From IMG/VR virus record IMGVR_UViG_3300023184_004198, positions 62,001 to 126,000 of that record: a stretch of DNA of 64,000 nt; one strand, 5' to 3'. Numbering within the stretch: position 1 is the first letter of the stretch; the number at the start of each line of letters is the position of its first letter. The notes under the pieces were generated by a model. It saw only the letters and a list, made by a program, of their open reading frames with translations, ran no database searches and was not told where the DNA came from. A program made the translations under genes and the position numbers. Shown one piece after another: positions 6,420 through 50,244 of this stretch. The DNA is from a virus.

Positions 6420-7543
6420 CATTTTGTCACGCACCTTGGACCAATTTGGAAATACTCCCCAGTGGAGAAATACTACCTTGTTGTAAATTTGAAAGCCGCA
6501 GTTATCCTCAGACCTTTAACATACAGCACCATACCATAGATGACTACAGACAAAGTGCAATGTTGTCCACAGTCAAACAACAATTTCAGTCAGGTCAGTG
6601 GCCCACAGGCTGTGAACGTTGCCAAATAGAAGAACAAAGTGGAATTGAAAGCAAGCGACAATTGGATTACACGAGATGGCAACACCATTATGACAATTAC
6701 AATCTCAACAGCAATGATTTGCTAACTGTGAGTTTGGCATTGGGCAATACCTGTAACTTAAAATGCATCATCTGCGGCCCGGCTGCATCTAGTAAATGGA
6801 TCAAAGAGTACAAAGATGTTTATAGCATACAGATTCAAAACATTGAAAGTGTTCGAAAAGATTTAATCAACAATATCACTAGCATTGCTCCCGATCTGGT
6901 GCACATAGACATGCATGGCGGCGAGCCCATGTTGTCCAATATAGAACAACATCAAGCATTGTTGGATCATTACATACACACCGGGCAGGCAAAGAATATT
7001 TCTATTCACTACACAACCAATGCCACAATTTTTCCTGATCAAACTTGGCTGGACAGATGGATGCACTTTGCTGAAATTGATTTGCAGTTGAGCATCGATG
7101 GCATAGGTCACCGATATGAATATCTAAGATATCCAGCAGACTGGAGTACATTAGAGAATCATGCTGAACAATATCTACGATTGCAACAGCAACAATCAAA
7201 TATCAAACTCAGTGTGGCACATGCTGTGAGTGCATTCAACATATTTTATATAGAAGAATTTGTAACATGGTGCCAGCAAAAAGGCCTGCCTAGACCTTGG
7301 ATGGGCAAGGTGCATACCGCCGCTTGGCTAAGACCTTCAGTTTGGCCCGAACCGGCCAAGTCAGCCATTGTAAATAAATTACAATCAAGTACAATAGAAG
7401 ATGTGCAAACCTGGGCAAATCTAATGCAGAACACAGATGACAGCAATTTGTTTGATCAATTCAAACAGTTTGTACAACGGCACGATCAATATAGAAATTT
7501 AGATTTTAAAAACACATTCCCAGACTTGGCCCAATACATATGA
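6416..7543 (+). CDS. Radical SAM enzyme with extra N-terminal cysteines
   Basis: A 375-residue protein. The SAM-cluster motif CNLKCIIC (CX3CX2C) follows a N-terminal CHAPW...LPCCKF segment and a CERC pair, which could bind an auxiliary Fe-S cluster. A GGEP motif (DMHGGEPM) and a LSIDGIG strand are typical of radical SAM barrels. I chose the ATG at 6416, which overlaps the previous stop as ATGA, over an earlier frame start at 6215 that would lie inside the preceding gene. The substrate is unknown. Confidence 0.85.
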   Translation: MTFCHAPWTNLEILPSGEILPCCKFESRSYPQTFNIQHHTIDDYRQSAMLSTVKQQFQSGQWPTGCERCQIEEQSGIESKRQLDYTRWQHHYDNYNLNSNDLLTVSLALGNTCNLKCIICGPAASSKWIKEYKDVYSIQIQNIESVRKDLINNITSIAPDLVHIDMHGGEPMLSNIEQHQALLDHYIHTGQAKNISIHYTTNATIFPDQTWLDRWMHFAEIDLQLSIDGIGHRYEYLRYPADWSTLENHAEQYLRLQQQQSNIKLSVAHAVSAFNIFYIEEFVTWCQQKGLPRPWMGKVHTAAWLRPSVWPEPAKSAIVNKLQSSTIEDVQTWANLMQNTDDSNLFDQFKQFVQRHDQYRNLDFKNTFPDLAQYI

Positions 7544-9009
7544 AACGATGCACCATACAAATACGTGATGAAGTAAACATCAAGATTGAAGGTCTAGACT
7601 TGGATGCTCGCAAGGCTCTAGTCAATGCTTTCAAATATGAAAACCCTGCCGCACGTTATTTGCCAGCAGTGCGTTTAGGACGTTGGGATGGCAAGGTAGC
7701 ATATTTCCAACTAGGCGGCTCAACTTATGTGAACTTGCTGCCGGAGATCATGCCTATACTAGAGAAGTTTGACTATGATGTTGAACTGGATGACCAACGA
7801 GACTATTCAAACACATTCAATTTTGAGCAGGTGACTGAAACAAGTTTTGAACATGTGAAGTGGCCCAAGACACATCCGGCCGCAGGCGAGCCCATTATGT
7901 TGCGTGACTATCAAGTGGAGATTGTGAACAACTTCTTGGCCAATCCACAATGCATACAGGAAGTGGCCACAGGTGCAGGTAAGACCATAATGACAGCGGC
8001 ACTAAGCAATGCTGTGGCACCATATGGCCGTAGCATTGTTATTGTACCCAACAAAAGCCTTGTGACGCAGACCGAAGCTGACTATATCAACATGCAACAA
8101 GATGTTGGTGTGTACTTTGGTGACAGAAAAGAATACGGCCGTCAACATACCATATGCACATGGCAGAGCCTAAACAACTTGTTGAAGAACACCAAAGCCG
8201 GAGTAGGCGACTGCACCATTGGTGAGTTCCTAGAAGATGTGGTGTGCGTGATTGTAGACGAAGTACACATGGCCAAGGCAGATGCACTGAAAACCTTGTT
8301 GACAGGTGTCATGGCTAGAGTGCCAATTCGCTGGGGATTAACTGGAACTGTGCCCAAAGAAAAGTTTGAAAGTCAAGCATTACTTGTGAGTCTTGGTCCT
8401 GTAATTGGTAAACTCAGTGCTAGTGAACTACAACAACAAGGTGTGTTAGCCAACTGTCATGTGAACATTGTGCAGTTGATTGATCATGTGGAATACAAAG
8501 ACTATCAAAGTGAGCTCAAATATTTGCTAGAAGAGTCTGGCCGACTGGACACCATGGCGGACCTTGTGCGGCAAGTGAATGAAACAGGCAACACCTTGGT
8601 GCTGGTGGACCGTACCGAGTGCGGTAGGCAACTGGTTGCAAGGCTAGGGGACAAAGCAGTATTTGTTTCAGGTGCCACAAAAGGAACAAAGAGACAAGCA
8701 GAATATGATGAAGTGGCAGATGCAGTTGATAAAATCATTGTAGCAACTTATGGCGTTGCTGCCGTGGGTATTAATATTCCTAGGATTTTTAATCTGGTGC
8801 TTGTGGAGCCTGGTAAGAGTTTTGTGCGGGTGATTCAGTCGATTGGTCGTGGCATACGCAAAGCAGAAGACAAAGACCATGTTCAAATCTGGGACGTGAC
8901 AAGCACTTGTAAGTTTGCCAAGCGTCACTTGACCAAGCGCAAACAGTTCTACCGAGAAGCCAACTATCCTTTCACACAAGAGAAACTGGATTGGATGAAG
9001 TTAGGTTGA
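7540..9009 (+). CDS. uvsW: UvsW-like superfamily 2 DNA/RNA helicase
   Basis: A 489-residue protein, close to the length of T4 UvsW. Walker A ATGAGKT is at residues 143-149, DEVH at 240-243, a GLTGT motif III-like stretch follows, and a C-terminal QSIGRGIR motif VI is present. The first 110 residues match the small N-terminal domain of UvsW-type proteins (RLGRWDGKVAYF). UvsW remodels branched DNA and R-loops during T4 recombination-dependent replication. It overlaps the radical SAM gene by four bases. Confidence 0.93.
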   Translation: MKRCTIQIRDEVNIKIEGLDLDARKALVNAFKYENPAARYLPAVRLGRWDGKVAYFQLGGSTYVNLLPEIMPILEKFDYDVELDDQRDYSNTFNFEQVTETSFEHVKWPKTHPAAGEPIMLRDYQVEIVNNFLANPQCIQEVATGAGKTIMTAALSNAVAPYGRSIVIVPNKSLVTQTEADYINMQQDVGVYFGDRKEYGRQHTICTWQSLNNLLKNTKAGVGDCTIGEFLEDVVCVIVDEVHMAKADALKTLLTGVMARVPIRWGLTGTVPKEKFESQALLVSLGPVIGKLSASELQQQGVLANCHVNIVQLIDHVEYKDYQSELKYLLEESGRLDTMADLVRQVNETGNTLVLVDRTECGRQLVARLGDKAVFVSGATKGTKRQAEYDEVADAVDKIIVATYGVAAVGINIPRIFNLVLVEPGKSFVRVIQSIGRGIRKAEDKDHVQIWDVTSTCKFAKRHLTKRKQFYREANYPFTQEKLDWMKLG

Positions 9010-25576: not shown

Positions 25577-25605
25577 TTGACACATATCAGTAAATACGCT
25601 ATAAT
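25577..25605 (+). promoter_or_regulatory. Sigma-70 promoter of the iscU operon
   Basis: TTGACA (25577-25582), spacer 17, TATAAT (25600-25605), with GGGAGAA as ribosome-binding site before the ATG at 25623. Both boxes match the consensus exactly, so expression by host RNA polymerase early in infection is likely. Confidence 0.85.
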
Positions 25606-45329: not shown

Positions 45330-45793
45330 CCAAGAAAATCTTTTATGAAAAGGTTGGGAGAAAATATGTACCTGTGCATGAGTATGATGAGTACCTCATG
45401 GATGGCCTACCTTATGGCAATCATTTGATCATGTGCTACCCTGGCGGAAAGAGCACACGCTATAATATTGATCCTGCCCTGGCACCCATGATAGCGGCCG
45501 GACGTGTGGCTGAAGACAACATGAGTGAGGCTGTGCGTGATGCCAGTGCCATGCGTCCACGCCAGCATCCACTTACCCAAAAACAACAACAGGCTTGGCA
45601 ACGGTTGAACAAGGCCCTGGGCGATGACGTCTACACCATTGAAATTGCCAGTGCCAGAGAAATTGTTGATGCTGGCATCAAGGCCATGCAAAAGGAAGCC
45701 CAGCAATTATTAACCAATCCTGCTGTGAAACTGGCCTACGAGCAGTTTCTCCTTGTGTGCGAATTAACTAAAAAACAAGTTGACAACGCCTAG
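45326..45793 (+). CDS. Conserved hypothetical protein
   Basis: A 155-residue protein (MTKKIFYEKVGRKYVPVHEYDEYLMDG...). The first half is strand-rich with a YPGGKSTRYN loop, and the second half has charged helices. It overlaps the SGNH gene by four bases. The following promoter's -35 box lies in its last codons. Confidence 0.65.
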   Translation: MTKKIFYEKVGRKYVPVHEYDEYLMDGLPYGNHLIMCYPGGKSTRYNIDPALAPMIAAGRVAEDNMSEAVRDASAMRPRQHPLTQKQQQAWQRLNKALGDDVYTIEIASAREIVDAGIKAMQKEAQQLLTNPAVKLAYEQFLLVCELTKKQVDNA

Positions 45794-45808
45794 CAGTCGC
45801 AGTATAAT
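45780..45808 (+). promoter_or_regulatory. Consensus sigma-70 promoter of the structured leader
   Basis: TTGACA (45780-45785), spacer 17, TATAAT (45803-45808), both exact consensus. Expected start of transcription is near 45815, which opens about 190 bases with no convincing gene before the ATG at 46007. Confidence 0.85.
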
Positions 45809-45814
45809 CACTGT

Positions 45815-46000
45815 GCATGACCAGGGAGGTGGGTTGTTTAATGGGCACTGTAGGAATAGATCTGTAACCGGTCCTGCCGTGCGCCGTGGCATCAGAAACG
45901 TAAATCCCGTAGGATGAGACACTGGCTAGATCTGGCAACAGATCAAAACACTGGCTGGTACCCAGTGGAGTATGCCTTGTAGATAAAAACAGTGAGAAGG
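45815..46000 (+). ncRNA. Structured 5' leader or small RNA, unassigned
   Basis: This stretch of about 190 bases has no credible gene (only a 16-codon frame at 45817) but is full of hairpins. GCAC...AGGA (45845-45855) pairs with TCCT...GTGC (45872-45882). ATCC/GGAT flank 45904-45914. GATCTG (45929-45934) and CAGATC (45939-45944) close a GCAA tetraloop. CACTGG (45949-45954) pairs with CCAGTG (45962-45967). AGATCTG occurs twice and ACACTGGCT occurs twice, so alternative pairings are possible, as in a riboswitch. It matches no known RNA family that I recognise. Confidence 0.55.
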
Positions 46001-46006
46001 ATAGCA

Positions 46007-46324
46007 ATGTCTGTTGAAATTGAAACCTCTGCGTCGAGCACGTTTGAATCCCTTGACTCTCTTAGATCAACGCCCTTGGTCATGCACCGTATTCAGGTTG
46101 AGTTGCGTGATATCAAAGTCTGGTATGCAGTAATACGTGAACTCAATCAGGCCTTTGGTGTCAACAACTGGAAGGGTCAAAATCATGTTCGACGTCGCCT
46201 GGAAGACCTGATCTGGAACGACAGCAAAACTCTCTGGGTTTGGTTTGATGTTCCAGATGAGAAGATTGCCACCTGGTTGGCCGTTAAACTAGCCGTCACA
46301 GTTCGTGTACCACCCAATAAATAA
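46007..46324 (+). CDS. Hypothetical protein downstream of structured leader
   Basis: A 105-residue protein starting at the ATG at 46007 after GAGAAGG. The sequence (MHRIQVELRDIKVWYAVIRELNQAFG...) is strand-helix mixed with several Trp. No signal peptide. If the leader is regulatory, this gene and the membrane protein that follows five bases later would be its targets. Confidence 0.65.
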   Translation: MSVEIETSASSTFESLDSLRSTPLVMHRIQVELRDIKVWYAVIRELNQAFGVNNWKGQNHVRRRLEDLIWNDSKTLWVWFDVPDEKIATWLAVKLAVTVRVPPNK

Positions 46325-46328
46325 ATCT

Positions 46329-47873
46329 ATGTTCCTCAGTTATTTTACACTATTAACCGCTCTTTCATTGAGCGTGGTCGCGGCCTGGTACAGTATACTG
46401 GGCCTTACTGCTATTTTTGCATCAGCAGTGATTCCCATCATCATCATGGGATCAATTCTGGAAGTGGCCAAGGTCACTGTCACAGTATGGCTGCACGAAT
46501 ATTGGCCACGGTGCCGACTGCTGATGAAGATATATCTTGTGCCGGCTGTGGGCATGCTCATGGTGATCACCTCAATGGGCATCTTTGGTTTCCTATCAAA
46601 GGCACACAGTGATCAAAATTTAATCAGCGGCGATGTAATAAGCCGAATTGCAATATATGATGAAAAGATCAAGACCCAGAAGGACAATATTGAAGCGAAC
46701 CGTCGGGCACTTAAACAGATGGATGAGGGAGTGGACTCGGTATTGGGTCGCTCAACAGATGAAAAAGGTGCCGACAAAGCTGTGGCTCTCAGAAAAGCCC
46801 AGCAGAAAGAGCGTGGTAGACTTCAAAGTGAAATACTACAGTCGCAGAAGTCCATTGCGGAACTTAACGATGCCCGTGCGCCTATTGCCGCCGAGGTACG
46901 TAAAGTCGAAGCAGAAGTTGGGCCAATTAAGTATATTGCGGCGTTCATCTACGGCGACAACCCGGACGCCAACTTACTAGAACGTGCTGTGCGTTGGGTG
47001 ATCATCATACTTGTGGTGGTGTTTGATCCACTAGCCATCATGATGGTGTTGGCCGCCACAGAGAGTTTGAAATGGGAACGTGAACGCAGATTGCAACCTG
47101 CCTATGAACCCGACGATGGTCCACTGACTGAAGAGCAAATTGACCAACTGCGTGAGATGGCGGAATCAGAATTGCCCCAAGGCGAAACAGTGACCACCAG
47201 TCACCTATTTGATGAAGAATCAACGGATCCACACCCACCTGGTTGGATGTACGGTGATTTGAAATCGCATCCACTGAATGAACAAGAAGTTGAAGAGGTT
47301 GTAGAAGAGTTTGATCGTGCTAGACATGCATACTTAGATGGATTTGACCATTTCAAAGATCTCAAACCTGTTGTGGCGCCCAAAAATGACATTGAACCTG
47401 TGGTGTTTAATCCAGAATATTTAAATGCACTGGCACAAGAGTCTGAATCAGATGACCATGATGATCCCAGAATACGAGCTGCCATCAAACAATGGAAGAG
47501 TGAAAATCCAGATCGTACCATCAAAGAAGAACGTGCCAAACTTGCTCGTGGAAAAATTGATCAATTGCCTTGGATGAGTTTGATAGCAGACAATGATCTA
47601 GGCAGAGAACCCACATCAGGATTTGGTATTGTTTTCCCAGCCAATCCAGTCAAAGGCGACACATTCATGCGTGTTGATCGCATGCCCAATGTGCTGTACA
47701 AATTCAACGGGCATCACTGGATTATTACAGACAAAAATTTAACTGATAACTACACATATGATGATGCATATATTGAGCATTTGATTGCACAGCTCACAAG
47801 CGGTGAATATGATCCAGACATGCTGAGTGATGCTGAAGCAGATGCTATTGCTCGTCGCGTAAAACCAATTTAA
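46329..47873 (+). CDS. Large membrane protein with coiled-coil centre
   Basis: A 514-residue protein. Three hydrophobic segments in the first 95 residues, a charged helical region at about 100-215, another membrane segment at about 220-245, and an acidic Glu/Asp-rich tail ending in a small globular domain (FGIVFPANPVKGDTFMRVD...). Similar multi-domain membrane proteins occur in T4-like marine phages with unknown role. Two bases separate it from clpX. Confidence 0.75.
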   Translation: MFLSYFTLLTALSLSVVAAWYSILGLTAIFASAVIPIIIMGSILEVAKVTVTVWLHEYWPRCRLLMKIYLVPAVGMLMVITSMGIFGFLSKAHSDQNLISGDVISRIAIYDEKIKTQKDNIEANRRALKQMDEGVDSVLGRSTDEKGADKAVALRKAQQKERGRLQSEILQSQKSIAELNDARAPIAAEVRKVEAEVGPIKYIAAFIYGDNPDANLLERAVRWVIIILVVVFDPLAIMMVLAATESLKWERERRLQPAYEPDDGPLTEEQIDQLREMAESELPQGETVTTSHLFDEESTDPHPPGWMYGDLKSHPLNEQEVEEVVEEFDRARHAYLDGFDHFKDLKPVVAPKNDIEPVVFNPEYLNALAQESESDDHDDPRIRAAIKQWKSENPDRTIKEERAKLARGKIDQLPWMSLIADNDLGREPTSGFGIVFPANPVKGDTFMRVDRMPNVLYKFNGHHWIITDKNLTDNYTYDDAYIEHLIAQLTSGEYDPDMLSDAEADAIARRVKPI

Positions 47874-47875
47874 AC

Positions 47876-49087
47876 ATGAAATCACCCGAAACCCTAGACA
47901 ACTGTAGTTTTTGCGGCAAGCACAAAGATTCAGTGGCCAAACTTATTGTGGGCAGTGAAGTCTCAATCTGCAATGAGTGTGTGGACTTGTGCCAGACCTT
48001 GCTCAAAGAAGAGCTGCCGATCAAGACCAAAGACGCCACTGACGAAACTTTGGACCCACGTGCCATCAAAGACCATTTGGACCAATATGTGATCGGACAA
48101 GATCATGCCAAGATGGTGTTGAGTGTGGCCATTGCCAATCACTACAAACGCATCGCTAATGCGGATCCTGATACCGAAATTGAAAAAGCCAACATTCTTA
48201 TGTTGGGCCCTACAGGTTCGGGCAAAACCTTGCTGGCTAGAACAGTGGCACGTTATTTGGATGTGCCGTTTGTGATTGCAGATGCCACCAGTTTGACCGA
48301 AGCAGGCTATGTGGGCGATGATGTAGAAAGTTTGATCACGCGGTTGTACACAGCCGCTGGTGGCGATGTAGAAAAAACACAACGTGGTATTGTGTTTATT
48401 GATGAAATTGACAAGATCAGTCGCCGTAGCGAGAGTGCCAGTATCACCCGAGATGTGTCAGGTGAAGGTGTACAACAGGCTCTGCTCAAATTGGTAGAAG
48501 GTACCAAGTGCAGAATTACCCCACAAGGTGGCCGCAAGCATCCGGCAGGAGATACTGTGGAAATTGACACAGCCAATATTTTGTTTATTGCAGGCGGTGC
48601 GTTTGTGGGACTGGACAATATTGTAAAAAGCCGTGTAAAAGGTACCAGCATTGGATTCTCAGCACAAGTAGTAGCAGACAACACCAATATCACCTTGGAT
48701 AAAACCACACCCGAAGATTTGATCAAGTTTGGCATGATCCCAGAATTTGTAGGACGTTTCCCCAGCTGGGTAGCCTTGGCAGAACTCAGCAAAGCAGACT
48801 TGGTGCGTATACTGCAGGATGTCAAGCACAGTTATGTCAGTCAATATCAATGGATATTCAAACGTGATCAAGTTGAGTTGAAATTCAGCCTAGACAGCCT
48901 GGACTTGATTGCAGAGCGCACCATTGCCAATAAGACTGGTGCTAGAGGTTTGCACTCAGAACTAGAGCGTGTGCTATTACCACACATGTATAATTTAACA
49001 CGTTATCGCAAGGGCGGAATTCAGGCCTTGAATATCAATACTGACCTGGTAAATAATCCTGAATCACTTCGGGAAATAAATGAGTAA
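47876..49087 (+). CDS. clpX: ClpX-type AAA+ unfoldase
   Basis: A 403-residue, full-length ClpX. Zinc-binding domain C10/C13/C32/C35, Walker A GPTGSGKT (111-118), pore loop GYVG (144-147), Walker B IVFIDEID, RKH-type loop GGRKHP (218-223) and the IGF motif (259-261) that docks onto ClpP. No clpP is present in the window, so it would work with host ClpP or as a stand-alone unfoldase. It overlaps the bS21 gene by eight bases. Confidence 0.94.
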   Translation: MKSPETLDNCSFCGKHKDSVAKLIVGSEVSICNECVDLCQTLLKEELPIKTKDATDETLDPRAIKDHLDQYVIGQDHAKMVLSVAIANHYKRIANADPDTEIEKANILMLGPTGSGKTLLARTVARYLDVPFVIADATSLTEAGYVGDDVESLITRLYTAAGGDVEKTQRGIVFIDEIDKISRRSESASITRDVSGEGVQQALLKLVEGTKCRITPQGGRKHPAGDTVEIDTANILFIAGGAFVGLDNIVKSRVKGTSIGFSAQVVADNTNITLDKTTPEDLIKFGMIPEFVGRFPSWVALAELSKADLVRILQDVKHSYVSQYQWIFKRDQVELKFSLDSLDLIAERTIANKTGARGLHSELERVLLPHMYNLTRYRKGGIQALNINTDLVNNPESLREINE

Positions 49088-49304
49088 ACCACACGCTAGA
49101 TCAGTATTAGTACAAGATAACAATGTTGAAAAAGCCCTGCGCAAGTTCAAGAAAAAAGTGCAGAATTCCGGCATACTAAATGATATTAGAGAGCGTGAAT
49201 TCTACACCAAACCCACCACTGCTAGAAAGCTCAAACGCAGTGCCGCTCGAAATCGCTGGCGCAAATACATTGAAGGTCAACAACTCCCGCCCCGCACACA
49301 CTAA
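49080..49304 (+). CDS. rpsU: Ribosomal protein bS21 homologue
   Basis: A 74-residue basic protein with the bS21 signature NVEKALRKFKKKVQNSGIL followed by REREFYTKPTTARKLKR and an AARNRWRK end. bS21 helps the 30S subunit bind mRNA leaders and is a known cargo of large aquatic phages. Its start lies eight bases inside clpX, so the two are translated together. Confidence 0.9.
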   Translation: MSKPHARSVLVQDNNVEKALRKFKKKVQNSGILNDIREREFYTKPTTARKLKRSAARNRWRKYIEGQQLPPRTH

Positions 49305-49318
49305 ATTTTCCAAATATT

Positions 49319-49378
49319 TTGACACAGAATGAAATTTGTGTTATAAATATACTTGTAGCGCCGATGGTCGGGCTACAA
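49319..49378 (+). promoter_or_regulatory. hsp20 promoter and 5' hairpin
   Basis: TTGACA (49319-49324), spacer 17, TATAAA (49342-49347). The -10 region also reads TATAAATA, the T4 late element, so both polymerase forms may use it. The transcript starts near a hairpin: TTGTAGC (49353-49359) with GCTACAA (49372-49378), plus CCG/CGG. This would protect the 5' end. The ribosome-binding site AAAGGAG is outside it. Confidence 0.7.
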
Positions 49379-49414
49379 TTCAAAAGTCATCTTGCTTAAT
49401 AAAGGAGAAAACAA

Positions 49415-49873
49415 ATGACAAAAACTCTAACCCTTCGCAGTTTCGATCTTCCCGCAATTCACAAATTTGGTATCGGTTTCGATAACCTGTTTGATGATCT
49501 CATGCGTGTCAACGCTCAACAAAGCAATACCAACTATCCGCCCTATGACATTGTGCAAGTCAATGATGACGAGTACATGATTTCATTGGCAGTGGCCGGT
49601 TTTGGGCCTGACAACTTGAGCGTGACCAAGGACAAAAAGACCCTGGTAGTGGAAGGCAAACACAGTCGCGAGACTGTGGACAACGAAGACGCCACAGCAA
49701 AATACTTGCACAAAGGCATCAGCGAGCGCAGTTTCCGCAGGGAATTTACCTTGGCTGATCACGTGGAAATCAGCAATGCACATCTTGAACTGGGCATACT
49801 CAGCATTCACTTGAAACGTGAAGTGCCTGAAGAGGCCAAGCCAAAGACCATTGCGATTACCTACAAAGAGTAA
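49415..49873 (+). CDS. Small heat-shock protein (Hsp20/IbpA-like)
   Basis: A 152-residue protein with an alpha-crystallin domain. YPPYDIVQVNDDEYMISLAVAGFGPDNLSV opens it, and SFRREFTLADHVEISNAHLELGILSIHLKR closes it with the conserved A/G-x-L-like turn. Hsp20 proteins hold unfolded proteins; phage versions are common in T4-like marine phages. Strong SD and own promoter. Confidence 0.92.
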   Translation: MTKTLTLRSFDLPAIHKFGIGFDNLFDDLMRVNAQQSNTNYPPYDIVQVNDDEYMISLAVAGFGPDNLSVTKDKKTLVVEGKHSRETVDNEDATAKYLHKGISERSFRREFTLADHVEISNAHLELGILSIHLKREVPEEAKPKTIAITYKE

Positions 49874-49888
49874 TATAATGTAAATACA

Positions 49889-49910
49889 GTGGCAGCAATC
49901 CTGCTGCCAC
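49889..49910 (+). other. Intergenic hairpin between hsp20 and clpS
   Basis: GTGGCAGCA (49889-49897) and TGCTGCCAC (49902-49910) form a perfect 9-base-pair stem with a four-base loop. No T tract follows, so it is not a standard terminator. It could be an RNA-processing or mRNA-stability element. Confidence 0.6.
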
Positions 49911-49932
49911 TAATTGTAAGCAAGGAATAGAA

Positions 49933-50244
49933 ATGGCACAGAGCGATACACGCACACGAATCAAACCATCAGAGGCTGTTCAAGAGCCTCCCATGTTCAA
50001 AGTTATCTATTTGAATGATAACCAAACCACAATGGATTTTGTGGTGGACAGTTTGATTGAATACTTTGATTACACTCCCGAGACTGCTGAACAAATAACC
50101 ATTGATATTCATCAAGCAGGTCAGGCCACAGTGGCAGTGTTGCCTTATGAAGTTGCTGAACAAAAAGGCATTGAAGTCACACTCAGCGCACGTTCACAAA
50201 GTTATCCACTGCAAATCAAACTAGAACCTGAAACGGTAAATTAA
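49933..50244 (+). CDS. clpS: ClpS adaptor protein
   Basis: A 103-residue protein. VIYLNDNQTTMDFVVDSL matches the ClpS NDDxTPMxFV motif, with N28, D29 and M34 kept and the second Asp replaced by Asn (N30). H60 matches the N-end-binding His. ClpS delivers N-end-rule substrates to ClpAP, and in E. coli it blocks ssrA substrates. With ClpX nearby it suggests redirection of host proteolysis. It converges on the next gene with four bases of overlap. Confidence 0.88.
   Translation: MAQSDTRTRIKPSEAVQEPPMFKVIYLNDNQTTMDFVVDSLIEYFDYTPETAEQITIDIHQAGQATVAVLPYEVAEQKGIEVTLSARSQSYPLQIKLEPETVN

Follow-up and report, generated by a model that had tools for sequence, protein, structure and literature searches.

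In a 64 kb window of viral DNA (the whole stretch that was analysed, part of a 212,614-base virus record), an exact consensus promoter is followed by about 190 bases of hairpin-rich sequence before the next gene, which raises the question of what this stretch encodes and how it acts. An earlier note, made from the letters of the window alone, had proposed a riboswitch or a small RNA. The features that define the locus are as follows (positions in the window).

45780-45808, + strand: sigma-70 consensus promoter TTGACA-17-TATAAT, exact match (-35 box TTGACA 45780-45785, -10 box TATAAT 45803-45808, spacer 17 bases); at least 11/12 matches in 71 of 77 homologous loci
45815-46006, + strand: leader RNA, a new structured RNA family; 173 bits and E 8e-41 with covariance model R1 (the search set includes sequences from which R1 was built), 95.6% of cells paired in the set of 78 leaders
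45996-46001, + strand: Shine-Dalgarno sequence GAAGGA, 1 base after the end of helix P5; AAGG invariant in alignment A3
46007-46324, + strand: ORF105, 105 residues, with relatives in viral contigs
46329-47873, + strand: ORF514, the next operon gene, with a hydrophobic N-terminal part; found immediately after ORF105 in 143 of 147 loci, some contigs being counted twice

Homologous leaders and the covariance model

The promoter boxes had been called exact, and this holds: they match the consensus at 12/12 positions in the window, as they do in 64 of the 77 homologous loci, with 11/12 in 7 more. A putative transcription start lies roughly 7 bases downstream of the -10 box. The window also carries six copies of TTGACC-17-TATAAT, all on the + strand (2954, 3237, 38961, 39097, 42183, and 61959), and, at 25577 and 59258, further promoters with exact TTGACA and TATAAT boxes; judging from these sigma-70 promoters, the phage seems reliant on those of its host.

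Taken alone, the stretch is uninformative with respect to folding energy, which we discarded as evidence (-51.6 kcal/mol, compared with -53.8 ± 4.5 for shuffles; z = +0.48). As the earlier note had suspected, no known family was recognized: a search of Rfam release 15 with the window gave no match at gathering or relaxed thresholds, apart from one chance snoRNA match (E 0.71), and 13 homologous loci gave none at E ≤ 1. Given this z-score and the absence of an Rfam match, the question could not be decided from one sequence alone. No description of the leader RNA was found in the openly licensed literature, and ARAGORN detected no tRNA or tmRNA. Many relatives carry GUAGUYYAAUGG (45836-45844 in the window), which forms the 5' strand of helix P2 with its flank and resembles a tRNA D-arm; this identity was rejected, since ARAGORN finds no tRNA there and the strand pairs elsewhere, in P2.

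A search of viral contigs for ORF105 yielded 31 loci, all with the same promoter and with a similar leader at a near-equal distance. DNA patterns and protein profiles extended the set to 78 distinct leaders from uncultured phages (in one search of viral contigs, 80 of the 201 ORF105 relatives found were kept), many of which are only ~70% identical to the leader of the window. From 43 representatives below 93% identity (mean pairwise identity 73%, minimum 62%) we built the covariance model R1, which recovers 78/78 leaders with E below 1e-27. A later set of 33 loci, including some contigs already seen, matches R1 throughout; two of its members, L343 and L337, had been held out of the model and reach 126 and 137 bits, respectively. 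In bacterial and archaeal genomes, the 34 matches to the core pattern do not exceed the number expected by chance according to our own estimate, and none of them scores with R1. Among described phages, no relative of the leader or of ORF105 was found.

The conserved fold

The fold was first read by eye from the alignment and tested afterwards. It consists of the following parts.

45815-45975, + strand: P1, GCAU 45815-45818 with AUGC 45972-45975; 99.7% of cells paired, almost invariant
45823-45830, + strand: J1/2, purine-rich and Shine-Dalgarno-like, AGGGAGGU here and AAAGAGAU or AAGGAGAU elsewhere; conserved in alignment A3
45831-45908, + strand: P2', GGG 45831-45833 with CCC 45906-45908, extended by U45834-A45904; 97.8% paired
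45836-45899, + strand: P2, GUUU 45836-45839 with AAAC 45896-45899; 98.7% paired, 4/4 pairs changed on both sides
45843-45885, + strand: P3 hairpin, G45843-C45885 and stem 45850-45854 with 45873-45877; 5/5 stem pairs compensated
45858-45872, + strand: P3 apical loop with palindromes AGATCT 45858-45863 and ACCGGT 45867-45872; ends and centre covary
45890-45916, + strand: P4, a possible pseudoknot with P2, CAUC 45890-45893 with GAUG 45913-45916; weak
45920-45994, + strand: P5, outer part CACUG 45920-45924 with CAGUG 45990-45994, inner part CUA 45926-45928 with UAG 45980-45982
45929-45944, + strand: P6 hairpin GAUCUG-GCAA-CAGAUC, GNRA-type; 5/6 pairs compensated
45949-45967, + strand: P7 hairpin CACUGG-CUGGUAC-CCAGUG, with conserved GAGUAUGC after it; 97.6% of cells paired, three compensated pairs

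The hairpin-rich RNA seen in the single sequence corresponds to a conserved fold, whose shape has been kept more strictly than its letters as far as the ribosome-binding site. It has seven helices with 34 pairs, and 95.6% of cells over the 78 leaders are paired, a count that leans towards the model because the alignment was fitted to its structure. When the 3' strands are shifted by 1-3 bases, the paired share falls to 31-47%. The earlier note had suggested looking for compensatory changes in homologous leaders, and these are abundant, with 314 doubly compensated cells, whereas shuffles give 87 ± 10 and slid strands 9-40; P2', P2, P3, P6, and P7 each contain several compensated pairs. In P2', single relatives show GGG/CCC, GAG/CUC, GUG/CAC, AUG/CAU, and CGG/CCG, and the pair types include GC, UA, AU, and GU.

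Unmodelled pairs and held-out sequences are free of the alignment bias, and strand-swap tests have less of it. Our own phylogeny-aware test, a stricter one in which substitutions are redistributed along a tree, gave three pairs with E < 0.05 and two more at 0.05, all five of them inside or adjoining the proposed helices. One of these five, U45834-A45904, which alternates with C-G, had not been proposed beforehand; the top covarying pair is 45931-45942 in P6. Since aligners misplace P5, this helix was tested by strand swapping rather than by column counting: strands from the same sequence gave 9.35 for the inner part and 10.93 for the outer part, compared with 6.91 ± 0.26 and 8.80 ± 0.34, respectively, for strands from other sequences. 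P1, which closes the RNA near its 5' end and crosses P5, and P4, the two helices that give rise to the pseudoknots, are nearly invariant and, for this reason, scarcely tested by covariation; in P4 the core CA/UG does not vary and the next pair is formed in 47% of the representatives. Several unpaired segments are also conserved, i.e. CAAAAC, GUAUGC, and AAAUC..GUAGG.

As expected of a structured leader, the fold is conserved with compensatory changes and lies in a 5' UTR, on the same strand as one gene and at a near-fixed distance from it. On the basis of this comparison, the stretch represents a new RNA family within a known kind of element, the structured phage mRNA leader, and its palindromic loop is unusual; the evidence beyond chance is that of the homologues and not of the single sequence. 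The covariation of the family is unusually clear, its distinct forms from uncultured phages number at least 78, and Rfam 15 has no entry for it. GOLLD, ROOL, and OLE are several times longer than the leader of the window and are already in Rfam; to our knowledge, they are not leaders running into a Shine-Dalgarno sequence. These ornate bacterial or phage-associated RNAs form RNA-only homo-oligomers (PMC12286853). Orphan motifs such as the phage-borne manA and wcaG are, like the leader of the window, conserved structured 5' leader RNAs recognized by comparative sequence analysis only, some of them in phages (PMC2864571), whereas the RNA of the window matches no Rfam model and precedes a single protein family, ORF105.

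The leader could instead have been conserved as a coding sequence, in particular for the 16-codon frame at 45817. The view that it holds no credible gene was confirmed, as only chance frames of ≤79 aa are present. The frame at the 5' end varies in length among relatives (6-62 codons) and lacks an ATG in 3/78, so that the 16-codon frame is not what is conserved and the conserved short reading frame typical of a leader-peptide attenuator was not found. Within 45817-45830 of the window, and in relatives, J1/2 resembles a Shine-Dalgarno sequence, AAGGAG or AGGGAGG, closely 3' of the AUG of P1; this is why the 5' frames of most relatives start with M-x-[KR]-E-[IVM], even though they vary greatly in length.

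The earlier note had based its switch on repeats that are indeed present, AGATCTG at 45858-45864 and 45928-45934 with CAGATC at 45939-45944, and ACACTGGCT at 45919-45927 and 45948-45956 with CCAGTG at 45962-45967, as is the GCAA tetraloop at 45935-45938. The switch pairings themselves did not survive the comparison. For AGATCTG/CAGATC, the alternative is paired in 48.0% of cells compared with 92.5% for the local hairpin, and full Watson-Crick complementarity between the P3 loop and the 3' strand of the GNRA hairpin exists in only 3/78 leaders; for ACACTGGCT/CCAGTG, the values are 68.6% and 97.6%, respectively. Neither proposed alternative therefore provides the two mutually exclusive conserved pairings expected of a riboswitch, and on comparative grounds the repeats are a local coincidence of the lineage of the window.

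ORF105, its operon and proposed translational control

Every copy of the RNA with enough downstream sequence precedes an ORF105 gene, and searches away from ORF105 gave no real match. Conversely, the RNA was flagged in 79 of 81 distinct upstream regions of ORF105 relatives, the remaining two being a contig that begins within the gene and a case of a misassigned start, where the leader is in fact visible in the DNA upstream. The RNA is single copy, with one strong match per genome in the record of the window and in 12 large records. The operon order is ORF105-ORF514-clpX, with clpX nearby in most loci, whereas 55 of 154 loci lack the upstream neighbour of the window (the counts on 147 and 154 loci come from two fetches, with some contigs counted twice).

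Described phages do contain relatives of ORF514. In Salicola phage SCTP-2 (L348), the order is ORF514-clpX-clpS (window 46329-50244), but neither ORF105 nor the RNA is present, which makes both of them apparent lineage-specific additions at the head of the operon. In Acinetobacter phage Aci01-1, a weak match (E = 3) with a 207-base gap upstream is not a homologue and has no RNA; similarly, in Xanthomonas phage XacN1 and Stenotrophomonas phage RAS14, the small genes that precede ORF514 relatives are distinct from ORF105, and no RNA is found there.

ORF105 is predicted to adopt an alpha/beta fold preceded by ~20 disordered residues, with an AlphaFold core pLDDT of about 90, and is slightly basic (pI 8.1). 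It has no match in Pfam, a library of curated models, no significant Foldseek match in the PDB or BFVD, and no recognizable RNA-binding domain. The copy in the window has no PHROGs match; PHROGs 5720 and 14214 cover parts of some relatives (best E 1e-4). In one relative (L054, near 7300-7700), ORF105 carries an in-frame deletion, with SLDYSTKEWY replacing the SLDSLEITPLVMHRIWFQLHSTKEWY of close relatives, and the leader is intact.

These associations bear on the possibility that the RNA is a free-standing small RNA merely positioned before ORF105. Its own strong promoter and a fold closed from P1 to P1 would suit such a molecule. However, we found no terminator-like site on the + strand between the RNA and ORF105, the 3' strand of P5 ends only 1 base from the Shine-Dalgarno sequence here and 1-3 bases in relatives, and the RNA is never found without ORF105. 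As P5 runs up to the Shine-Dalgarno sequence with no terminator before the gene, the small RNA of the earlier note is very unlikely as an independent molecule.

We favour, as fairly probable, a 5' leader of the ORF105-ORF514-clpX operon in large uncultured phages that exerts cis-acting control of translation initiation. The host sigma-70 RNA polymerase would start at the consensus promoter and the leader would fold while emerging; because a single base separates the end of P5 from the Shine-Dalgarno sequence, the state of P5 and of the crossing P1, formed or not, would set how well the 30S subunit lands. The fold would in this way control translation initiation of ORF105 and of the genes behind it, and we infer that it represses or gates translation. 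Since the Shine-Dalgarno sequence is unpaired in the conserved fold, any occlusion would have to be steric.

The same arrangement could belong to a constitutive element, in which the fold protects the 5' end of the mRNA or gives the ribosome a standby site that serves strong expression, without any regulation. The near-consensus promoter, the closure of the 5' end by P1 almost at the first base, the invariant and unpaired Shine-Dalgarno sequence, and the Shine-Dalgarno-like J1/2 are all consistent with this role. We nevertheless regard it as improbable, as the constraint on sequence and structure is far above the need of a stability hairpin or a standby site, and the conserved loops and junctions would be left unexplained.

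A given riboswitch class is usually found in front of several metabolic genes, whereas ORF105 is the only gene ever found downstream of this RNA. A fold that binds a small molecule and is coupled to P5 and the Shine-Dalgarno sequence would account for the complexity of the structure, the conserved unpaired bases, and the helix adjoining the Shine-Dalgarno sequence. J1/2 might also pair, as an alternative, with the 5' strand of P5, which points in the same direction; this coupling is weak (z 4.4), occurs in some lineages only, and is hardly present in the lineage of the window, and, as noted above, the pairings proposed earlier are not conserved. No alternative fold conserved in all lineages was found, and a switch thus remains a candidate only. 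The exclusive link to a single gene makes the riboswitch less likely, and we consider it doubtful.

If cis-acting control does respond to a signal, our first guess, a tentative one that we hold well short of probable, is that ORF105 binds its own leader; a small molecule seems unlikely as the signal, and the control may also operate with none. Autogenous control is suggested by the exclusive one-to-one link of the leader with ORF105, the linkage that an autogenous operator would have, by the slightly basic charge of the protein, and by a precedent, the T4 gene 32 leader, whose pseudoknot is the operator for that gene's own product, gp32 (PMC3014915). Both are phage mRNA leaders with a pseudoknot (here a possible one) upstream of the ribosome-binding site of one gene (PMC3014915). 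The T4 element, however, combines a small 5' pseudoknot with an A+U-rich stretch, whereas the present leader has ~180 bases and about seven helices; gene 32 RNA binds its own product, whereas binding by ORF105 is a guess only, and no relationship in sequence or structure was found between the two elements. The one-to-one link with a small protein at the head of a clpX operon makes binding of ORF105 to the leader directly testable.

Palindromes in the P3 loop

One or two self-complementary sites are present in the apical loop of P3. Unexpectedly, 35 of 39 distinct loops hold a palindrome with 6 bases or more, compared with 7.7 ± 2.4 expected from a simple base shuffle, the loops being related by descent. 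The palindromes differ between lineages, with AGATCT, ATCGAT, TAGCTA, or GCTAGC at the first site and ACCGGT, CCTAGG, CCCGGG, or CTCGAG at the second. Self-complementarity is therefore kept while the sequence changes, which is the behaviour expected of a kissing loop. At the second site, positions 1-6, 2-5, and 3-4 covary; as 2-5 and 3-4 are unable to pair inside one loop, pairing between two molecules is the natural explanation. These changing yet self-complementary loops suggest kissing-loop dimers.

In such a dimer, two leaders would kiss through their P3 loops and RNA concentration would matter, a behaviour that could be combined with cis-regulation. Besides the exchanged palindromes and the covariation at the second site, dimerization is favoured by a short-loop lineage in which CCTAGG is retained within a loop of nine bases, arranged as in known palindromic kissing loops (PMC7357161). 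Against it, 4 of the 39 loop types have no 6-base palindrome, a small hairpin with a palindromic tetraloop can explain part of the first site, and both the shuffled expectation and the shared descent of the loops weaken the contrast. On balance, dimerization is possible though unlikely. A further step, which we consider quite unlikely, would be a new RNA class in which leader copies kiss and translation of the operon depends on the amount of its own mRNA, i.e. an RNA-only concentration sensor in a 5' UTR.

If true, dimerization here would be an uncommon case of natural RNA dimerization in a bacterial or phage mRNA leader. The HIV-1 dimerization site and the oskar 3' UTR, both palindromic kissing-loop RNAs, likewise present a six-base self-complementary sequence in an apical loop (PMC7357161), whereas here the putative dimer palindrome lies in the mRNA leader of a DNA phage and its sequence is exchanged between lineages.
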